64,000 nt of DNA from Candidatus Nitrosopumilus sp. (lineage in GTDB: Archaea; Thermoproteota; Nitrososphaeria; Nitrososphaerales; Nitrosopumilaceae), in contig JAOTTS010000009.1 of assembly GCA_029864335.1 (NCBI GenBank), forward strand, positions 1-64,000, in the 5' to 3' direction. The position numbers and the translations under genes are program-made. How positions within the stretch are numbered: the stretch's first letter is position 1; the number at the start of each line of letters is the position of its first letter. Below, piece by piece: positions 1 to 9,406 of the stretch. The notes beneath the pieces were generated by a model that had not been told where the DNA came from, did not search any database, and saw only the letters and a program-made list of their open reading frames with translations.

Positions 1-250
1 CTTTTCGAACTTTGACTTTTCCTGGTACCACATCCATGTGACCACATAACATTATTTTTGGAGATCCTGTACCTTTCTTTGCAATAACATTTCCAACTTC
101 ATCAATTTCGATATCTTCAAATCCCAAGTCATCACATTTGTCAGCTAAAAATTCTGCTAATGGTTTTTCACTAAGTGATGGTGTGTAGAGTCTGAGTGCT
201 TTCTCTAACATCTTTACTGCAAATCTTGGTTCTGATAGATGATTGGCCAA
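1..250 (-). CDS. lysK: [LysW]-lysine/ornithine hydrolase LysK, N-terminal part
   Basis: Partial gene running off the left edge. The visible frame contains GHMDVVPG, the metal-binding H-x-D motif of M20 metallopeptidases, preceded by a typical N-terminal helix (MLEKALRLYTPSLSEKP). LysK releases the finished lysine or ornithine from the LysW carrier, and its place directly after lysX fits. The frame opens right after the lysX stop; I chose TTG at 250, 3 nt downstream of that stop. ATG at 211 is the alternative and would give a short N-terminus. The C-terminal catalytic part is not visible. Confidence 0.8.
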   Translation of the reverse strand, partial: MANHLSEPRFAVKMLEKALRLYTPSLSEKPLAEFLADKCDDLGFEDIEIDEVGNVIAKKGTGSPKIMLCGHMDVVPGKVKVRK

Positions 251-253
251 TTC

Positions 254-1096
254 TTATTTTTCTATATTTAGGGCATAATTTAGCATTAATGATGGAATAT
301 CTACTTCGCAAACTCTAACTGTGTTTTTGTATTCTGTTGTGTTATTTACTTCGTGCACAACCAATCCTTTTTCATCACTTTCCATCAAATCTACACCTAC
401 AATATCTCCTTGAACTGCATTTTTTGCCTTTATACACATCTCTTCCATTTCTGATGTGACCTTGCATGGTTCTGCTTCTCCACCAAGTGCCATGTTTGTT
501 TTCCAATGTTTTGATTTTCTGTATATTGCAGCAGCTATTTTCTCTCCTACCATTATAGCTCTGATGTCTCTTGGTGGTCTTTTTACAAATTCTTCTAGAT
601 AATGTATTTGATAAATTGGATACATGTTTTCTCTACTTTCAATAATGCCTTCAGCTGAATCTCTGTCGTTAAGTTTTGAAATTAGTCTTCCCCAACTTCC
701 TACAGTAGGTTTGATAACTTTGGGAAATCCTTGTGTCTCTAATGCTTCCAAAGCTGCCTCTTTTGAAAATGCTACTGTAGCATCTGGTGTTGGAACATCG
801 AATTTTTTAAGTAACATGTGTGTAAATAATTTATTTCCTGCAAAAACACCTGTGTTTAGACAATTAATTACCTTGACTCCTAATCCTTCAAGAGCAGCAG
901 TTGAATGTAAATTTCTGTAATAGCTTACACATCTTTGAATAACTACTCCATAATCTTCAGGTTTTTTTTCTAAATCTAATGCTAGCTTCTTACAATCAAC
1001 CATCTGGATATTGATGTTATTTTTTTTACCTGCTTCTAGTAGGGCTTTTTCTTCCCAACGGATGGTATCGTAAAGAATAGTAACGTCAGGACTCAC
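254..1096 (-). CDS. lysX: LysX, alpha-aminoadipate-LysW ligase (ATP-grasp)
   Basis: RimK-like ATP-grasp ligase, 280 aa, of the LysX/ArgX family, which joins an amino acid to the C-terminal Glu of LysW. Seen: GSWGRL loop, RPPRDIR, and HEVNN near the C-terminus. The loop EYKNTVRVCEVDIP and the HWKTN segment resemble bacterial LysX as I remember it, whereas the paralogue at 8382-9239 has EFKGLVRV, so I assign this copy to aminoadipate (lysine branch). The start is GTG at 1096, which overlaps the upstream lysW stop as GTGA; a TTG at 1105 is in frame but less likely. Substrate assignment is inference. Confidence 0.8.
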   Translation of the reverse strand: MSPDVTILYDTIRWEEKALLEAGKKNNINIQMVDCKKLALDLEKKPEDYGVVIQRCVSYYRNLHSTAALEGLGVKVINCLNTGVFAGNKLFTHMLLKKFDVPTPDATVAFSKEAALEALETQGFPKVIKPTVGSWGRLISKLNDRDSAEGIIESRENMYPIYQIHYLEEFVKRPPRDIRAIMVGEKIAAAIYRKSKHWKTNMALGGEAEPCKVTSEMEEMCIKAKNAVQGDIVGVDLMESDEKGLVVHEVNNTTEYKNTVRVCEVDIPSLMLNYALNIEK

Positions 1097-1260
1097 TGTC
1101 CCCAATCCTCGCCAACCGTTTGGGCAGGCTTTAGTTGGAAACCGTCTGAATTTTTTTCTAATTCAAAACTTGCACCACATTCTGAACATGTTACAATTTC
1201 TCCCTCAAGTGCATCGCTTGGGATGAATATTTCTGCATCACATTCTTCACATTTTGACAT
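1093..1260 (-). CDS. lysW: LysW-like amino-group carrier protein ending in Gln
   Basis: 55-aa acidic zinc-ribbon protein with CEEC and CSEC pairs and the C-terminal signature GEDWG-. LysW carries aminoadipate or glutamate on its terminal Glu during lysine/arginine synthesis. The last codon here is CAG (Gln), so it ends EDWGQ, while the second copy at 9239-9406 ends EDWGE. The ATG at 1260 gives exactly the same length as the second copy; a longer in-frame ATG at 1293 is less likely. The stop overlaps the lysX start by 4 nt, so the two are translationally coupled. Confidence 0.85.
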   Translation of the reverse strand: MSKCEECDAEIFIPSDALEGEIVTCSECGASFELEKNSDGFQLKPAQTVGEDWGQ

Positions 1261-1570: not shown

Positions 1571-3448
1571 CTAGTTACAACCGATTACACTATGTGAATA
1601 TGATAAGGTTGATTTTGGGGTTGGAGGATTGTTTTCTACTGAATAAACTTTAATCTTTGTCTTGTCATTTAGAACAAATTCTGTTTTTTGTTTAAATACG
1701 AATTTCTCGGACGATTTTATAATGTTGTATAGATCTCCTTCAATCACCAGTTTATTAGGTTGTGCCAATGAATTAATTTTTGTGCACACATTTACAGTAG
1801 AGCCAAAGATATCTACGACTGATGAAGTAGACATCTGAGCAATCATTATTGAACCATAAACGGCACTAATTCTGTAAGAAACAGAAGATAATCCTTTCTC
1901 ATCCATTTTATCGTTAATTTTGCTATATGAGTCAATCATCATCATACAGCAATTAATGGCATTTTCAAAATGTTGGATGTTATCTCTATTAGTTTCAGGA
2001 AAATAAAACAGCAATGCGTCACCAATATTTTTTACTACAATTCCTTCAAATTCTTTAACAATTGAAGCCATGAAATTGATAAAAATTCCATAGAAATTAC
2101 GCGTATCTTTATCTGATAGATTTGCGGTAATTTTGGTTGAATTAACGATGTCTATTACACCCACACAGCATTTTTGTTTATTCTCAGAAAATTCTAAAAG
2201 AAGATCTTGTTGTTCTTTAATTATTTTATCTCTTTGTTTGATTTTTTTCAGGGATTCTTGAATTTTTACAGCCATCGCATCAAATGAAATCGAAAGTTGT
2301 TCTATCTCGTCACCAGATTTTATGTTACTTCTTGTATCGAAATTTCCGTTAGCTATTTCATCTGCAGCATCTTTAAGCTTCATAATTGGTTTTGAGATGG
2401 ATTTGGAAAGAAAGACGGAAACAATTCCCACACCTGCAATAATTATGATGCCAATAAAGAAGAATGCTTGTTGTAGCTTTGTGATTGGACTCAAAATTTC
2501 AGATTCATCAATTTCAGTTAGTAAGGCCAAATTAAAATTAGTTAGACAATAAGAAAAACCATATACTTGCTTGTTGGCAGAATTGGAGTATTTTCCGTAA
2601 TAATTCAGTCCTTCATCAAAACACATCTTTGTGGGAATTGTATTTAGCATCATGGAAGATGAATTGTTCTCATCAGATCTAGATTTTAAAATGATCAACT
2701 CATCATTATTTATTAAAAATGATTGATCTGACTCTGTAGTTTTAAATGGTTTACGTAAAATTTGATTTATCTCCAATATGTCTACTGTTGCAATGATGGT
2801 GCCCATTGGTTCAGAATGAATATTTGTCTCAGAAACAAAAACAGGTACTGATATAATCGCATTTCCATTATTTGAAATTGAAGAAATATTAAATTCAATA
2901 AGAGGTGCTTTAACACCTCTTTCAGAATCATAAATGGGGGATAAATTATTTTCATCGGTTTCTTCGCTCAAAGAAAAATATGTTTTTCCATTCTGACCCA
3001 AAATCTGCAAATCCTCTAATTCTAATGAATGATCTAAATTGTTTTGGTATTCATGAATTTTATCTAAAAAATCTAGTCGTTTTTCTTCAATTGTAACTTT
3101 AAATAAGGATTCATCTTCTAACCTGTTTACATCATTAATGGATTTTTGTATTAATTGGTTTTTTGCAAGATTTTGTACTTGTTGAATTTTTAAATTAAGA
3201 AATTCCTGTATCGTTTCTCCCTGTATGATAGACTCACTAACAAGTTGATCTTTTGTCTTTTCTTCAATTGTCAAGATGACAATACTAAATGTCAAAAGTG
3301 CGGTTATAGATAATGCTATGATGGAAACTAGGCCGATTGCTAAAATCATTTTTTTGTTAATGTTTAATGAAAGCATACTTAACTTATGTGAACAAAAATA
3401 TTGTTTCAATATGCAATATTTTTTATTACAAACTCTAACCATCCGCAT
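1571..3448 (-). CDS. Membrane-bound class III adenylate/guanylate cyclase with HAMP domain
   Basis: 625 aa. One membrane segment near residues 34-60, a roughly 270-residue extracytoplasmic sensor region (Cache-like by layout), a second membrane segment (FFFIGIIIIAGVGIVSVFL), a HAMP linker beginning SKSISKPIMKLKDAADEIANG, and a C-terminal class III cyclase domain. In the latter, GVIDIVNST and NIGDALLFYF carry the two metal-binding Asp residues, and VDIFGSTVNVCTKI fits the conserved region near the catalytic Asn. Likely turns an external signal into a cyclic nucleotide or other signal. ATG at 3376 (MLSLNINKK) is an alternative start. It sits alone between the lysine genes, with which it has no obvious link. 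Confidence 0.8.
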   Translation of the reverse strand: MRMVRVCNKKYCILKQYFCSHKLSMLSLNINKKMILAIGLVSIIALSITALLTFSIVILTIEEKTKDQLVSESIIQGETIQEFLNLKIQQVQNLAKNQLIQKSINDVNRLEDESLFKVTIEEKRLDFLDKIHEYQNNLDHSLELEDLQILGQNGKTYFSLSEETDENNLSPIYDSERGVKAPLIEFNISSISNNGNAIISVPVFVSETNIHSEPMGTIIATVDILEINQILRKPFKTTESDQSFLINNDELIILKSRSDENNSSSMMLNTIPTKMCFDEGLNYYGKYSNSANKQVYGFSYCLTNFNLALLTEIDESEILSPITKLQQAFFFIGIIIIAGVGIVSVFLSKSISKPIMKLKDAADEIANGNFDTRSNIKSGDEIEQLSISFDAMAVKIQESLKKIKQRDKIIKEQQDLLLEFSENKQKCCVGVIDIVNSTKITANLSDKDTRNFYGIFINFMASIVKEFEGIVVKNIGDALLFYFPETNRDNIQHFENAINCCMMMIDSYSKINDKMDEKGLSSVSYRISAVYGSIMIAQMSTSSVVDIFGSTVNVCTKINSLAQPNKLVIEGDLYNIIKSSEKFVFKQKTEFVLNDKTKIKVYSVENNPPTPKSTLSYSHSVIGCN

Positions 3449-3635: not shown

Positions 3636-4802
3636 TTATTTATCAGAAATTATCTTTTTTTCAAGTCTATCTTCGAGTGGTATTTCTATAAGATCCCCCA
3701 TTCTGAGTCCCTTTAATCCGGATGCTACTGCTTTTGCACTTTCATCGTTTTTCTCGAGTCCTAACAATGACATCAAATAGGCAGCACCTGTCTTTCCTGC
3801 AAGCTCTCCAAAGACAATTCTTCTCCGGTTTCCAACTGCTCTTGGTGGTATGGGCTCATATGCTGCTGGGTTTCTGAGAATGGCTGCAAGATGTGTTCCT
3901 GCTTTATGTTTATATGCTGATGAACCAACAATTGGTTTTGAATCATATGGTTTGATTGTTGTATATTCTTCAATCAATCTTGAAAGATCTAGTAACATAT
4001 CCAATCTGAAATCATTTGGTGATTTGTATAGATATGTCAATGCAACTGCTACTTCTGCAAGGGGTGGAATTCCTGTTCTTTCCCCAATTCCATCAATAGT
4101 AGTGTGAATCTGATCAACTCCTGCATCACATGCTGAAAATGCATTTGCTACTGCAAATCCAATATCATTATGAACATGTGCATCTAATGGAACATCTATA
4201 GTATCTCTTACTTTCTTAACAAAATTATACATTCCAATTGGACGCAATATTCCAACTGTATCTGGAAGACTAATTCTATCAACGCCTGCTTCTTCAATCG
4301 CTTTACAAACCTTGATTAAAAATTCAGGTTCTGCCCTACTTCCATCTTCAACTGTAAATCTAATTTTTAGACCATGAGATTTTGCATACTCTACTGTTTC
4401 AACTGATCTTCTTAGAGCCTCTTCTCTTGAAATACGTAATTTGTCTTTTAGATGAATATCTGAAATTCCTAGATATGCAGCACACCATTTAGCATCACAA
4501 TCTAATGAAATGTCAATGTCTTCTTTTAGTGCACGCCCATGAGAAACAATGTCTGCTTTTAATCCTTGTTTAATTATTGTTTTAGTTGCTTCTTTATGAT
4601 CATTTGAAACAACTGGTGATATTTCAATTTGATCTACTCCAAAATAATCTAACATCCATGCAATCTGAATTCTTTGTTTGTTAGTAAACGATACACCTGG
4701 ATGTTGTTCTCCTTCTCTTAGAGTACTATCTAATACTTTGATCTTCTTTGGATTTTTGTCATATGCATTGTAAATATTTGCATAGTGATTCGGATCTTTC
4801 AT
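3636..4802 (-). CDS. lysS: Homocitrate synthase-like enzyme (HMGL family)
   Basis: 388 aa of the isopropylmalate/homocitrate synthase superfamily. Motif DSTLREGEQHPGV near residues 25-37 and the metal-binding HVHNDIGFAVANA are present. DSTLREGEQ is homocitrate-synthase style rather than the LRDGEQ of most LeuA proteins, and the length lacks the LeuA regulatory domain. It would condense 2-oxoglutarate with acetyl-CoA, the first step of the aminoadipate route to lysine, which fits the neighbouring LysW genes. Isopropylmalate or citramalate synthase activity cannot be excluded from sequence alone. Starts at ATG 4802, 118 nt after the Lrp gene. Confidence 0.75.
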   Translation of the reverse strand: MKDPNHYANIYNAYDKNPKKIKVLDSTLREGEQHPGVSFTNKQRIQIAWMLDYFGVDQIEISPVVSNDHKEATKTIIKQGLKADIVSHGRALKEDIDISLDCDAKWCAAYLGISDIHLKDKLRISREEALRRSVETVEYAKSHGLKIRFTVEDGSRAEPEFLIKVCKAIEEAGVDRISLPDTVGILRPIGMYNFVKKVRDTIDVPLDAHVHNDIGFAVANAFSACDAGVDQIHTTIDGIGERTGIPPLAEVAVALTYLYKSPNDFRLDMLLDLSRLIEEYTTIKPYDSKPIVGSSAYKHKAGTHLAAILRNPAAYEPIPPRAVGNRRRIVFGELAGKTGAAYLMSLLGLEKNDESAKAVASGLKGLRMGDLIEIPLEDRLEKKIISDK

Positions 4803-4920: not shown

Positions 4921-5340
4921 TTAGACTATTTTTCTCAAAATTATCACAGTATTTGTATCAACCACACCTGGAATCTTTCTTAATGCGTCAATGGTGTTGT
5001 TGATTTCAGCAATGCTTGATGCACTCATAATTGTCGTAATATCGTATTGACCAGTTATTTCATAAACTGTTTTCACTCCTTCTAGTTTTGCAAGTTTTAG
5101 AGAAACTTTTGATGTGTCTGTGGCAGAATCAACTGATACCAAAACAATTGCACTTGTCGCATTCTCCTCACCAATCTCCAAAGTAAATTTTTTGATTGTT
5201 CCACTATCTACAAGATTTTTCACTCGTCTTCTAACTGCTGATTCAGAAAGCTTTAATTTTTTACCAATATCTACAAACGATTCTCTAGCATCTTCTTTTA
5301 GATATCCGATTATCTTCTCGTCTATTTTATCCTTGTACAT
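4921..5340 (-). CDS. Lrp/AsnC-family transcriptional regulator (LysM-like)
   Basis: N-terminal helix-turn-helix (DEKIIGYLKEDARESFVDIGKKLKLSESAVRRRV, given in pieces: recognition part SESAVRRRVKNL) followed by a RAM ligand-binding domain (YEITGQYDITTIM). Located as the last gene of the arginine/lysine operon, so it probably senses lysine or arginine and regulates the cluster, as LysM does in Sulfolobus; that role is inference. I chose ATG at 5340 (MYKDKIDEKI), giving a 14-nt overlap with lysJ; a start at 5361 would add a poly-basic tail. Confidence 0.8.
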   Translation of the reverse strand: MYKDKIDEKIIGYLKEDARESFVDIGKKLKLSESAVRRRVKNLVDSGTIKKFTLEIGEENATSAIVLVSVDSATDTSKVSLKLAKLEGVKTVYEITGQYDITTIMSASSIAEINNTIDALRKIPGVVDTNTVIILRKIV

Positions 5341-6508
5341 TTTTTTTTTGCTCCTCCTCACTAAGTACAGAATCTAGAGCATGTAAAACTTTTGTTATGT
5401 CTTCTTCAGAAATCACTAGCGGTGGAAGAATTCGTAGAATATTCCTTCCAGAATATAGCATCAGAACACCTTTTTTCATCAATCCCATAAGTATGTCTTT
5501 AACTTCAAATTTCATCTCTATTCCTATCATTAATCCTTTACCTCGAATTTCTCTAATCATGTTGTGATTTTCTTTTAGTTTCTCTAAACCTTCCCTGAAT
5601 ATTTTCCCCATTTTTTCAGAATTCTCTACTAAACCATCTTCTGTTAATGCTTTGAGTGCTGCAGTTCCTGCTGCACATGATAATGGATTTCCTCCAAATG
5701 TTGAAGAATGTTCTCCCTTACTCATTGAAGCAAGTATATCTGGTCTTACAAGTGTTGCACCCATTGGAACACCGCCTGCAATTCCTTTTGCAAGACACAA
5801 AATATCCGGCACAGTATTCCAATGTTCACATGCCCATAATCGTCCTGTTCTTCCTAAACCAGCTTGTATTTCGTCAAAAATTAACAAAATTCCTTTTTCA
5901 TCACAAAGTTTTCGTACATCCTGTAAAAATCCATCTGGCGCAACAATGATTCCACTTTCACCTTGTATTGGTTCTAAAATCACAAATGCTGTATCCTCAT
6001 CAACTACAGAACAAAGTGACTCAATGTTTCCAAAAGATGCAAAAGAAACTTTCTCAACTAGTGGCTCAAATGCTTTTTTATATTTTGGATTAAATGTTAA
6101 TGATAACGCACCAAATGATTTACCATGATAGGAGCCTTTCATTGCAACCATTCCTTTTTTACCAGTAAATTTTCTTGCAAACTTTATTGCAGCTTCAATT
6201 GCTTCTGCACCGCTATTGTTTAGATGAACTTGTGTGAGTCCTTTAGGAGATAACCCGATTAATGTTTTCAAAAATTCTTCTCTTGTTTTATTGTATAAAG
6301 AACTGTGAACTGTAATAATTTTATCAATCTGTTCTTTGATTGCATTTTTGACTCTTTGATTTTGATGACCTACTAATGCTACTCCATATCCTCCCATGCA
6401 ATCAATGTATTCTTTTCCGTCTATATCCCATACATGTGATCCTTTCCCTTTCTCAACTGTAACTGGAAATCTCTGGTAGAGATTTCCCATAAATTGATCT
6501 TCACTCAT
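5327..6508 (-). CDS. lysJ: [LysW]-aminoadipate semialdehyde / acetylornithine-type aminotransferase
   Basis: 393-aa class III PLP aminotransferase. FDEIQAGLGRTG contains the cofactor Asp (about residue 212) and LAKGIAGGVPMG the Schiff-base Lys (about residue 241). It transfers an amino group to the LysW-bound semialdehyde, probably serving both lysine and ornithine branches because only one copy is visible. Overlaps the kinase gene upstream by 8 nt. Confidence 0.88.
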   Translation of the reverse strand: MSEDQFMGNLYQRFPVTVEKGKGSHVWDIDGKEYIDCMGGYGVALVGHQNQRVKNAIKEQIDKIITVHSSLYNKTREEFLKTLIGLSPKGLTQVHLNNSGAEAIEAAIKFARKFTGKKGMVAMKGSYHGKSFGALSLTFNPKYKKAFEPLVEKVSFASFGNIESLCSVVDEDTAFVILEPIQGESGIIVAPDGFLQDVRKLCDEKGILLIFDEIQAGLGRTGRLWACEHWNTVPDILCLAKGIAGGVPMGATLVRPDILASMSKGEHSSTFGGNPLSCAAGTAALKALTEDGLVENSEKMGKIFREGLEKLKENHNMIREIRGKGLMIGIEMKFEVKDILMGLMKKGVLMLYSGRNILRILPPLVISEEDITKVLHALDSVLSEEEQKKNVQG

Positions 6509-7304
6509 GTTCTATCACCGTACAATTATCATGTGCAATTGCAGCAGAGATTGGATTTTCTTTTTGACCATTTGCAATCAATGCTTCTTTTACTCCCATA
6601 TCTAATGCTTCTGTAGATGCTAAAATCTTCTTTTCCATTCCAGGTCCTATTTTTGACCTGATCTCTTTTGCTTCTGCTAATGTCAACTTTGGAACAAGTT
6701 TGTCATCCATTAGTAATCCATCTACATTTGTAATGAATAATACTTTGTCACTGCCAACTTTACCTGCCACATATGCTGCTGCTCTGTCTCCATCAACATT
6801 TAGAAATTCTGATTCTTCACTAATTGCTATGGGTGAAATAACAGGTGTTAATCCCTGCTCTAAGAGAGATTTGATGAATTTTGAATTGATATCGGTAATT
6901 TTACCTGTATATCCGCCGTCAATTGCTTGTTTTCTGCCTTTTTCGTTAACTATGAGAAGCTTCTTTTTTCTATCTGCTTGAATGATTTTTGCATCAACTC
7001 CTGAAAGACCAATTGCATTAATTCCATTTTTTTGAAGCATCTGAACAATTTTCTTGTTTATTCTTCCAGACATTACCATTGTAAAAATTTCTGCAGTTTC
7101 TTTGTCTGTATATCTACTTTTGATTCCACTTGGAGATGTAACAAATTTTGGTTCCTTTCCAAGTTGTTCACAAACTTTTGTAACTTCTTTTCCTCCACCA
7201 TGAACTAAAATAACTCCTTCTGACTCTGCAACTTTTTTAATATCTGTTATAGTAGATGGGTGTAAATTATCTACTACACTTCCACCAATTTTGATTGTGA
7301 TCAT
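6501..7304 (-). CDS. lysZ: [LysW]-aminoadipate/glutamate 6-kinase
   Basis: 267-aa amino acid kinase of the ArgB/LysZ family: IKIGGSV near the N-terminus, HGGGKEV loop, NVDGDRAAAYVAG and FITNVDGLL for substrate and nucleotide binding. It phosphorylates the carboxylate of the LysW-bound amino acid. Starts at ATG 7304, 2 nt after the stop of lysY, within the same operon. Confidence 0.88.
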   Translation of the reverse strand: MITIKIGGSVVDNLHPSTITDIKKVAESEGVILVHGGGKEVTKVCEQLGKEPKFVTSPSGIKSRYTDKETAEIFTMVMSGRINKKIVQMLQKNGINAIGLSGVDAKIIQADRKKKLLIVNEKGRKQAIDGGYTGKITDINSKFIKSLLEQGLTPVISPIAISEESEFLNVDGDRAAAYVAGKVGSDKVLFITNVDGLLMDDKLVPKLTLAEAKEIRSKIGPGMEKKILASTEALDMGVKEALIANGQKENPISAAIAHDNCTVIEHE

Positions 7305-7306
7305 TT

Positions 7307-8353
7307 CTAAACAGGAGTTAGTGGCGTGTTTCTGAGTCCATCCATTTCATCAAAACCACACATTACATTCATGTTTTGAATGGCTGAACCTGCTGCACCT
7401 TTCATCAAGTTATCTGATGCAGATAATGCAATTAATCTATTATTATCTTTATCTAGTTCAAATCCTATATCGCAAAAGTTAGAACCAACTAAGAATTTTG
7501 GATCTGGGAATTTATACAATCCTTTCTTATCTCGAATTAATCTGATGAATTTTTCTTCACCATAAGTTTGTCGATATAATTTCCACAATTCTTTTTCATC
7601 AATATCTTTCTTCAAGAATGTGTGATTTGTACATAAAATTCCACGAACAACATCGACTGCATGCGGACTCATTGAAACACGAATTTTATGTCCTGCAATT
7701 TCGCTTAATTCCTGTTCAATTTCACCAGTGTGTCTGTGCTTTGCAGGTTTGTATGGTCTAATTACTCCTGCTCTCATCGCATGTGCAGTTCCTGAACCAG
7801 AACCTGCACCAGAAGAACCAATCTTTGAATCAACTATAATATGTTCTGTATCAATAATGTCATTTCGAATTAATGGTGCAAGTGCTAACATCGATGTTAC
7901 TGCCATGCATCCTGGGCATGAAACAAGCTGAGCTTTTTTAATTGCCTCTCGGTGTAATTCAGGTACCCCAAAAACTGATTTTGCTAAATAATCTGGATGT
8001 GGGTGTTCCCAACCATACCATTTGTCATATGCATCCTGATTATGCAATCTATAATCTGCACTCAAATCAACAACTTTGACTCCTCTGTCATACAGAGCCT
8101 TTACAATTTCAGTTGCAGTTCCATGAGGAACAGCGGTGAAAACTAAATCACACTGATCAGTTAGTTTGTCGTAATCTAATTCAGAAAACATCAGATCGGT
8201 AAATCCTTTCAAACTTGGTTGGACTCTATGTAGATATTCTCCAACATGTTGTCTTGATGTAACCATGGCAATCTCAACATCTGGATGATTAACAAGCAGA
8301 CGAAGTGTCTCTCCACCTACATAACCTGATGCCCCAACAACACCTACTTTCAT
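7307..8353 (-). CDS. lysY: [LysW]-aminoadipate/glutamyl phosphate reductase
   Basis: 348 aa, ArgC/LysY family NAD(P)H-dependent reductase. GASGYVGG at residues 7-14 is the Rossmann loop and SCPGCM around 145-150 holds the catalytic Cys; HRHTGEIEQEL is typical. Reduces the LysW-acyl phosphate to the semialdehyde. The gap to argX is 28 nt, the longest inside this operon. Confidence 0.88.
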   Translation of the reverse strand: MKVGVVGASGYVGGETLRLLVNHPDVEIAMVTSRQHVGEYLHRVQPSLKGFTDLMFSELDYDKLTDQCDLVFTAVPHGTATEIVKALYDRGVKVVDLSADYRLHNQDAYDKWYGWEHPHPDYLAKSVFGVPELHREAIKKAQLVSCPGCMAVTSMLALAPLIRNDIIDTEHIIVDSKIGSSGAGSGSGTAHAMRAGVIRPYKPAKHRHTGEIEQELSEIAGHKIRVSMSPHAVDVVRGILCTNHTFLKKDIDEKELWKLYRQTYGEEKFIRLIRDKKGLYKFPDPKFLVGSNFCDIGFELDKDNNRLIALSASDNLMKGAAGSAIQNMNVMCGFDEMDGLRNTPLTPV

Positions 8354-8381: not shown

Positions 8382-9239
8382 TTATTTCCTAACGTAGTTT
8401 AGAGCAAATTCTATCATTTCTTTTGGTATATTTCGTTGTGATACTCTTACCAATCCTTTGAATTCAACTGTATTATTCACTTCATGCACAACTAGTCCTT
8501 TTTGATCATCTTCCATCATGTCAATCCCCAAGATTCCACCTCCCATTGCTTTTGATGCTTTGACGGCCAATTCCTCCATCTCTTTTGTGATCTCACAAAT
8601 TTCAGGATCTGCTCCAAGTGCAATATTTGTTTTAAAACCTCCTGAGGATTTTCTATACATTGCAGCAATAGGCTCGTCTCCTACTGTAATTACTCTGATG
8701 TCTCTTGGTGGTCTTTTGATTAATTCTTGCAAATAGTAAATTCTGTCATGTGGGCTATCTGTTATGTCTCTAATTTCAAAAACTGCCTCCATGGTATCTT
8801 TATCTTTTAACGGCATTACTCCTCTCCCCCAACTTCCTATTACAGGTTTGATAACTAGAGGAAATCCTACTTTTTTTAAATTCTCAGCTGCACTTTCACT
8901 TGAAAATGAAAAATATGTTTTTGGTGTAGGTATATTATTTTTTTTTAAAAGTAGAGTCATAAACATTTTGTTTCCACAAATACTTGCAACGTCAAATTTG
9001 TTTAAAACAGGAAAATCTAAAAATTCTAAACTTGCAGTAAAGTGAAGGCCTCTGAAATAACTGACGCATCTTTCTAGAATAACATCACCCAAGTCATAGT
9101 CTTCTTTTTTACTATCTGTGTTTATTTGAGTAATTTTTGCATCAAGCATAACTGTATCATGCCCGAGACTAGATGCTTCTTTTTGGAGCATCTTCTCTTC
9201 CGCTCTTAGGCGGTCAAACACGATACAGACTTTTGACAT
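8382..9239 (-). CDS. argX: ArgX, glutamate-LysW ligase (ATP-grasp)
   Basis: 285-aa RimK-like ATP-grasp protein, paralogue of the gene at 254-1096. Seen: GSWGRGV loop, LIKRPPRDIRV, HEVNNTVEFKGLVRV. The substrate loop differs from the LysX-type copy (EFKGLV versus EYKNTV), and the gene is coupled to argG, so I assign it to glutamate (arginine branch). ATG at 9239 overlaps the lysW stop (TAATG). Substrate assignment is inference. Confidence 0.78.
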   Translation of the reverse strand: MSKVCIVFDRLRAEEKMLQKEASSLGHDTVMLDAKITQINTDSKKEDYDLGDVILERCVSYFRGLHFTASLEFLDFPVLNKFDVASICGNKMFMTLLLKKNNIPTPKTYFSFSSESAAENLKKVGFPLVIKPVIGSWGRGVMPLKDKDTMEAVFEIRDITDSPHDRIYYLQELIKRPPRDIRVITVGDEPIAAMYRKSSGGFKTNIALGADPEICEITKEMEELAVKASKAMGGGILGIDMMEDDQKGLVVHEVNNTVEFKGLVRVSQRNIPKEMIEFALNYVRK

Positions 9240-9406
9240 TACTCTCCCCAGTCTTCGCCTACGCTTTCTGCTTGTTTAAGCTCAACATTTGATCCGTCTT
9301 TTTTGGAGATTTCAAAGTCAGCGCCACAATCAGGACAGGAGACAATTTCTCCAACTGAGGCATCGTCTGGGATGTTTAGTGTTGCATCACATTCTGGGCA
9401 GTTCAT
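9239..9406 (-). CDS. lysW: LysW amino-group carrier protein
   Basis: 55 aa: CPEC and CPDC zinc pairs, acidic body, C-terminal EDWGE whose last Glu is the attachment site. ATG at 9406 overlaps the argG stop as ATGA, and the stop overlaps argX, so argG-lysW-argX are coupled. Serves as protein carrier and N-protecting group for glutamate and, if shared, aminoadipate. Confidence 0.9.
   Translation of the reverse strand: MNCPECDATLNIPDDASVGEIVSCPDCGADFEISKKDGSNVELKQAESVGEDWGE

Follow-up and report, generated by a model that had tools for sequence, protein, structure and literature searches.

A LysW-type carrier ending in glutamine in ammonia-oxidising archaea, a candidate pro-form that recurs across Thermoproteota

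LysW is a small protein on which amino acids are carried while lysine and arginine are made, normally with the cargo on its terminal Glu. The window analysed here, a 64-kb stretch at the start of contig C50 in an archaeal genome (1.95 Mb, 58 contigs), encodes two such carriers, lysW-Q and lysW-E, both scoring above the curated cut-offs of the archaeal LysW/ArgW carrier model NF041070 and of the Pfam family Zn_ribbon_LysW. The lysW-Q gene occupies positions 1093-1260 of the minus strand (the strand was absent from the preliminary description) and its reverse complement translates to MSKCEECDAEIFIPSDALEGEIVTCSECGASFELEKNSDGFQLKPAQTVGEDWGQ*, a protein of 55 aa carrying two CxxC zinc-ribbon motifs, CEEC and CSEC. 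It reaches 86.8 bits against NF041070 (curated cut-off 75) and 44.8 against Zn_ribbon_LysW (cut-off 27), and among named organisms those most closely related at this locus are Nitrosopumilus species. The reading frame closes with CAG (1098-1096) and the stop codon TGA (1095-1093), and the EDWGQ terminus that had been reported for this carrier is therefore real. The G of the CAG codon, at position 1096, also opens the GTG with which lysX starts (254-1096, minus strand), giving a 4-base GTGA overlap. The ligase coupled in this way is intact, as previously stated: profile and motif identify it as a LysX-type ATP-grasp enzyme with the signature NNTTEYKNT, of the AAA type (KNT), and an unbroken GSWGR motif. 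The rule applied to these signatures separates aminoadipate-specific LysX (Asn-Thr) from ArgX (Gly) (PMC10433800).

Downstream of lysX, the 5' part of lysK (2-250, minus strand), which by profile encodes the M20 hydrolase for the release of Lys/Orn from LysW, is split by the contig end, and its remainder is found on contig C7. The second carrier gene, lysW-E (9239-9406, minus strand), ends with EDWGE, as the preliminary description had it, and adjoins argX (8382-9239, minus strand), a second ligase whose signature NNTVEFKGL is of the glutamate/ArgX type (Gly). Between the two carrier-ligase pairs, profiles place, all on the minus strand, a gene of the homocitrate/isopropylmalate synthase family for the first step to AAA (3636-4802), lysM, a regulator of the Lrp family (4921-5361), the lysJ/argD aminotransferase gene (5327-6508), the lysZ/argB gene for [LysW]-aminoadipate/glutamate kinase (6501-7304) and the lysY/argC reductase gene (7307-8353). 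A gene at 1571-3448 (minus strand) for a protein with HAMP and adenylate/guanylate-cyclase domains, the N-terminal half of which resembles an extracytoplasmic sensor, separates lysW-Q from the homocitrate/isopropylmalate synthase gene; these two adjoin in the mapped operons of families f3 and f5. Overall, lysW-Q has the operon context of LysW/ArgW carriers, with a cognate LysX and LysY/Z/J/K present, and lacks the encoded terminal Glu of their EDWGE end. Given its EDWGQ end, we class it as a LysW variant and not as an ordinary member.

The preliminary description had proposed comparing the C-terminal residue among relatives and regarded EDWGE in the same gene as evidence against its reading. 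The residue is Gln, always encoded by CAG, in 107 of 110 orthologous carrier loci (in part the same genomes present in two collections), and Glu in the other three. These three group in a single starred clade that arises from within the Gln clade, indicating that they are reversions. CAG is used instead of CAA because the GTG start of lysX is embedded in the overlap. We also considered whether this overlap forces the Gln itself and rejected the idea, as GAG is equally compatible and is used by the three relatives. Mapped on the ligase tree, base 1 of the terminal codon requires 2 changes vs 15 at the wobble base of the adjacent Gly codon, and third codon positions show a mean of 10.2. From the contrast between 2 and 15 changes, the terminal Gln of lysW-Q looks selectively maintained. 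We found no point in support of a chance mutation, a pseudogene or a sequencing error, and the probability of such an origin is negligible in view of both this contrast and the occurrence of Gln in 107 loci from many independent assemblies. The suggestion that the carrier is simply a mutant can thus be dropped.

We then looked at the distribution of the Gln end in 397 Thermoproteota genomes, which are partly MAGs, the key genomes being single contigs. The EDWGQ-stop pattern occurs in 96 of them and the EDWGE-stop pattern in 260. Two matches to the Gln pattern were set aside, one followed by TGG and not by a stop (G285:C1:1952672) and one outside any LysW profile match (G125:C35:44093). As judged from the sequences, most ammonia-oxidising archaea and, separately, several other groups encode a LysW with a Gln end. 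In the window's family, pattern searches found exactly one Glu copy and one Gln copy in 65 of 70 genomes, and genome G006 likewise has one of each. Moreover, the best tree requires 11 changes between Glu and Gln, and counting starred branches alone gives at least eight; they concern both LysX- and ArgX-linked carriers, and both end states are found inside single genera (f14/g58 and f36/g73). What had been presented as a single odd copy is instead a recurrent alternation across Thermoproteota, which extends to actinobacterial carriers. Such an alternation of encoded Gln with Glu among relatives is also what a Pup-type Gln precursor displays.

Carriers were assigned to ligases using a profile search of 50 genomes and operon maps. 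A lysine-specific tag, with Gln paired to LysX and Glu to ArgX, holds in the window's family and fails elsewhere: the assignment is swapped in G442, both carriers end in Gln in G422, G295 and G171, and both end in Glu in G433 and G386. Separately, three genomes of family f30 (L236, L237, L238) encode LysW-like zinc-ribbon proteins whose tail is a long run of Glu with Trp as the last residue, without an EDWGE/Q end.

At least 17 Thermoproteota genomes from four families possess exactly one LysW, which ends in Gln (G285, G374, G400 and G439; G102, G118, G126, G134, G149, G206, G211 and G232; G110, G142, G291 and G216; G219), and one further genome, G223, has a single LysW with the end EDYGQ. For example, G285, G374 and G400 are closed single-contig genomes of soil-type ammonia oxidisers, rated 99% complete, in which the operon reads ArgG-ArgX-LysY-LysZ-LysJ-LysM-HCS-LysW(Q)-LysX-LysK and LysW(Q) is the only LysW. 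Being the sole LysW, the Gln carrier must work in these organisms if they make arginine or lysine this way. A decoy or a regulator, both of which had been put forward, is thus not a general answer, because many complete genomes whose LysX/Y/Z/J/K operons are intact encode no LysW other than the Gln form. The idea could still be confined to genomes that hold one copy of each kind. There, the Gln copy would never be loaded and would work as a regulator, a chaperone of LysX or a decoy, while the Glu copy served both pathways. The one-of-each composition of the window's family fits this, as does the single LysW that serves both pathways in Sulfolobus (PMC10433800). However, closed genomes with full operons have an orthologue of the Gln copy and no other LysW, and the return of three species to Glu did not require a change in LysX; we therefore regard this restricted version as unlikely. 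Taken together, Gln-ended LysW is very probably a functional carrier.

The LysX proteins beside the reverted Glu carriers show four consistent differences from their nearest Gln-partner relatives, at residues 3, 5, 6 and 280; the first three fall in the overlap region, and none of the four lies in the GSWGR or signature motifs. A scan for LysX columns tracking Glu/Gln over independent pairs returned none, the best averaging 3.3 of 8 pairs. Compensating LysX changes for the switch were thus found neither in the sister comparison nor in the column scan.

The tolerance of the terminal position was examined by searching the 397 genomes for EDWG followed by a codon ending in T or C (NNY), which covers Asp, Asn, His, Ala, Gly, Ser, Thr, Val and further residues. 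The 53 pattern matches, partly read, were of the same order as in the reversed-pattern control; 24 open frames with an EDWG-X end were recovered, and none of them is a LysW. The position thus appears to take Glu or its amide, as a requirement for a gamma-carbonyl predicts. This bears on a possible attachment without deamidation, in which LysX would attach aminoadipate to the terminal Gln through its free alpha-carboxylate. The ligase is a member of the RimK family, and the RimK/CofF/MptN family models are named alpha-L-glutamate ligases; such a linkage would also account for the Gln-only genomes and for the free exchange of Glu and Gln. It is nevertheless quite unlikely, since other residues should then be tolerated, yet no NNY-coded one was found, sister species with Glu and Gln ends have essentially the same LysX, and characterised LysX and ArgX form a gamma-linkage to Glu, the ArgW E54A mutant being an arginine auxotroph (PMC10433800). 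The absence of NNY-coded ends, the unchanged LysX and this known gamma-linkage chemistry together favour a conversion of Gln to Glu.

The ligase itself could also, in principle, exchange the amide: with ADP and phosphate, LysX would run in reverse on the terminal Gln, releasing ammonia via a gamma-glutamyl phosphate and passing the acyl group to aminoadipate, much as in the gamma-glutamyl transferase reaction of glutamine synthetase. LysK would then leave Glu for later cycles. No extra enzyme would be needed, which would explain why Glu and Gln interchange with unchanged partners, and trans-pupylation by PafA offers a partial precedent. We know of no report of such an activity in LysX. The small protein Pup is encoded with Gln in mycobacteria and with Glu in many other species; Dop deamidates Pup-Gln and strips Pup from its targets, and the Pup ligase PafA is unable to deamidate Pup-Gln (PMC12288473, PMC8599861). 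Ligase-type enzymes therefore need not help, and we consider amide exchange by LysX decidedly unlikely.

We propose instead that lysW-Q encodes a pro-carrier: a single hydrolysis of the gamma-amide would convert it to the Glu form, in which it would cycle from then on, with LysK as the likeliest deamidase; the chances of this pro-carrier scheme seem to us about even. The protein would be made as an inactive pro-form with a C-terminal Gln, the gamma-amide of which would be hydrolysed to give Glu, and LysX would then load aminoadipate onto the gamma-carboxyl in the usual manner. In each round, the releasing hydrolase would leave Glu, so that the carrier molecule would stay in this form; as a single cleavage would make the Glu form permanent, the Gln step would be needed only once per molecule. 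Of the four alternatives in the preliminary description, the deamidated precursor fits best, and from evidence that is comparative throughout we infer, with slightly better than even confidence, that Gln-ended LysW is matured by deamidation.

As for the enzyme, Dop/PafA can be discarded as the LysW-Q deamidase, since no member of this family (PF03136) was found in the 15 genomes tested, namely that of the window and 14 others with Gln-ended LysW. LysK, the M20 hydrolase that already cuts the gamma-amide between the terminal residue and Lys/Orn, would be a candidate, with a double role like that of Dop towards Pup, and its role here is a tentative guess that we hold at clearly below even. It exceeded the cut-off in 11 of 11 other genomes tested, and in the window's genome it matches in two pieces at contig ends; given that LysK is expected in any genome using the pathway, finding it is not discriminating. 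A point against LysK is that enzymes of the M20 type usually recognise the amino acid that leaves, and a primary amide has none. Moreover, that ammonia oxidisers retain Gln so strongly implies some advantage over Glu, one that the pro-carrier model leaves unspecified; our guess is that it serves to gate freshly synthesised carrier.

The defining, invariant attachment site of LysW is taken to be its terminal Glu, and a large, ecologically dominant archaeal group encodes the amide of this residue. Lysine and arginine synthesis in the Gln-only genomes would thus involve either an undescribed carrier-maturation step or a different attachment point or chemistry. A search of the open-access literature, with subscription journals outside its scope, found no paper on EDWGQ.

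A second, independent case is provided by actinobacterial gene clusters located on plasmids (L285 13974-17454, L291, L292, L293, L294). Streptomyces plasmids encode a LysW-like carrier ending in RDWGQ together with a RimK-family ligase, ArgC/ArgB homologues and a class-I GATase-type hydrolase (PF00117) whose Cys and His-x-Glu residues are apparently intact, and homologous Rhodococcus clusters contain the same genes with a carrier ending in RDWGE. Glu and Gln alternate in these carriers as well, with the releasing hydrolase retained. The idea that the GATase-type hydrolase goes only with Gln carriers was rejected, as the Glu carrier of Rhodococcus has the same GATase. In Streptomyces and Staphylococcus, the clusters of Glu type that were examined have an M20 hydrolase in place of the GATase-type one. 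The Rhodococcus erythropolis carrier gene (RDWGE end; L294 6980-7180) is absent from the gene table of its record. A Staphylococcus epidermidis plasmid (L279/L289, NZ_CP043848.1, 33368-42088) carries genes for a LysW-like carrier, a RimK-family ligase, a DegT aminotransferase, ArgC, an M20-type hydrolase and a transketolase.

By analogy, a C-terminal Gln might be a recurrent pro-form of gamma-glutamyl carriers in general, the cargo-releasing hydrolase also maturing the carrier in three unrelated settings, i.e., archaeal LysW with M20, actinobacterial LysW-like carriers with the GATase-type hydrolase, and Pup with Dop. This wider reading is speculative and, in our view, on the unlikely side; if true, Glu and Gln would interchange freely and the maturation step could gate carrier supply. 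Among known systems, the LysW/ArgW carriers (NF041070; Thermus 3WWL, Sulfolobus tokodaii 3VPB, Thermococcus 5K2M) share with lysW-Q the zinc ribbon, the two CxxC motifs, the EDWG tail, the length, the operon with LysX/Y/Z/J/K and the coupling to the ligase, whereas every LysW of solved structure that was matched ends in Glu. The actinobacterial clusters resemble the lysW-Q locus in combining a LysW-like carrier with a RimK-family ligase and ArgC/ArgB homologues, and in their Gln or Glu ends; unlike the archaeal LysW operon, they are of secondary-metabolite type and have a class-I GATase-type hydrolase. Pup differs from LysW in fold and role, which are unrelated, but it too is a small protein with a C-terminal Gln/Glu alternation between species, joined through its C-terminal gamma-carboxyl to an amine from which an amidase afterwards frees it.
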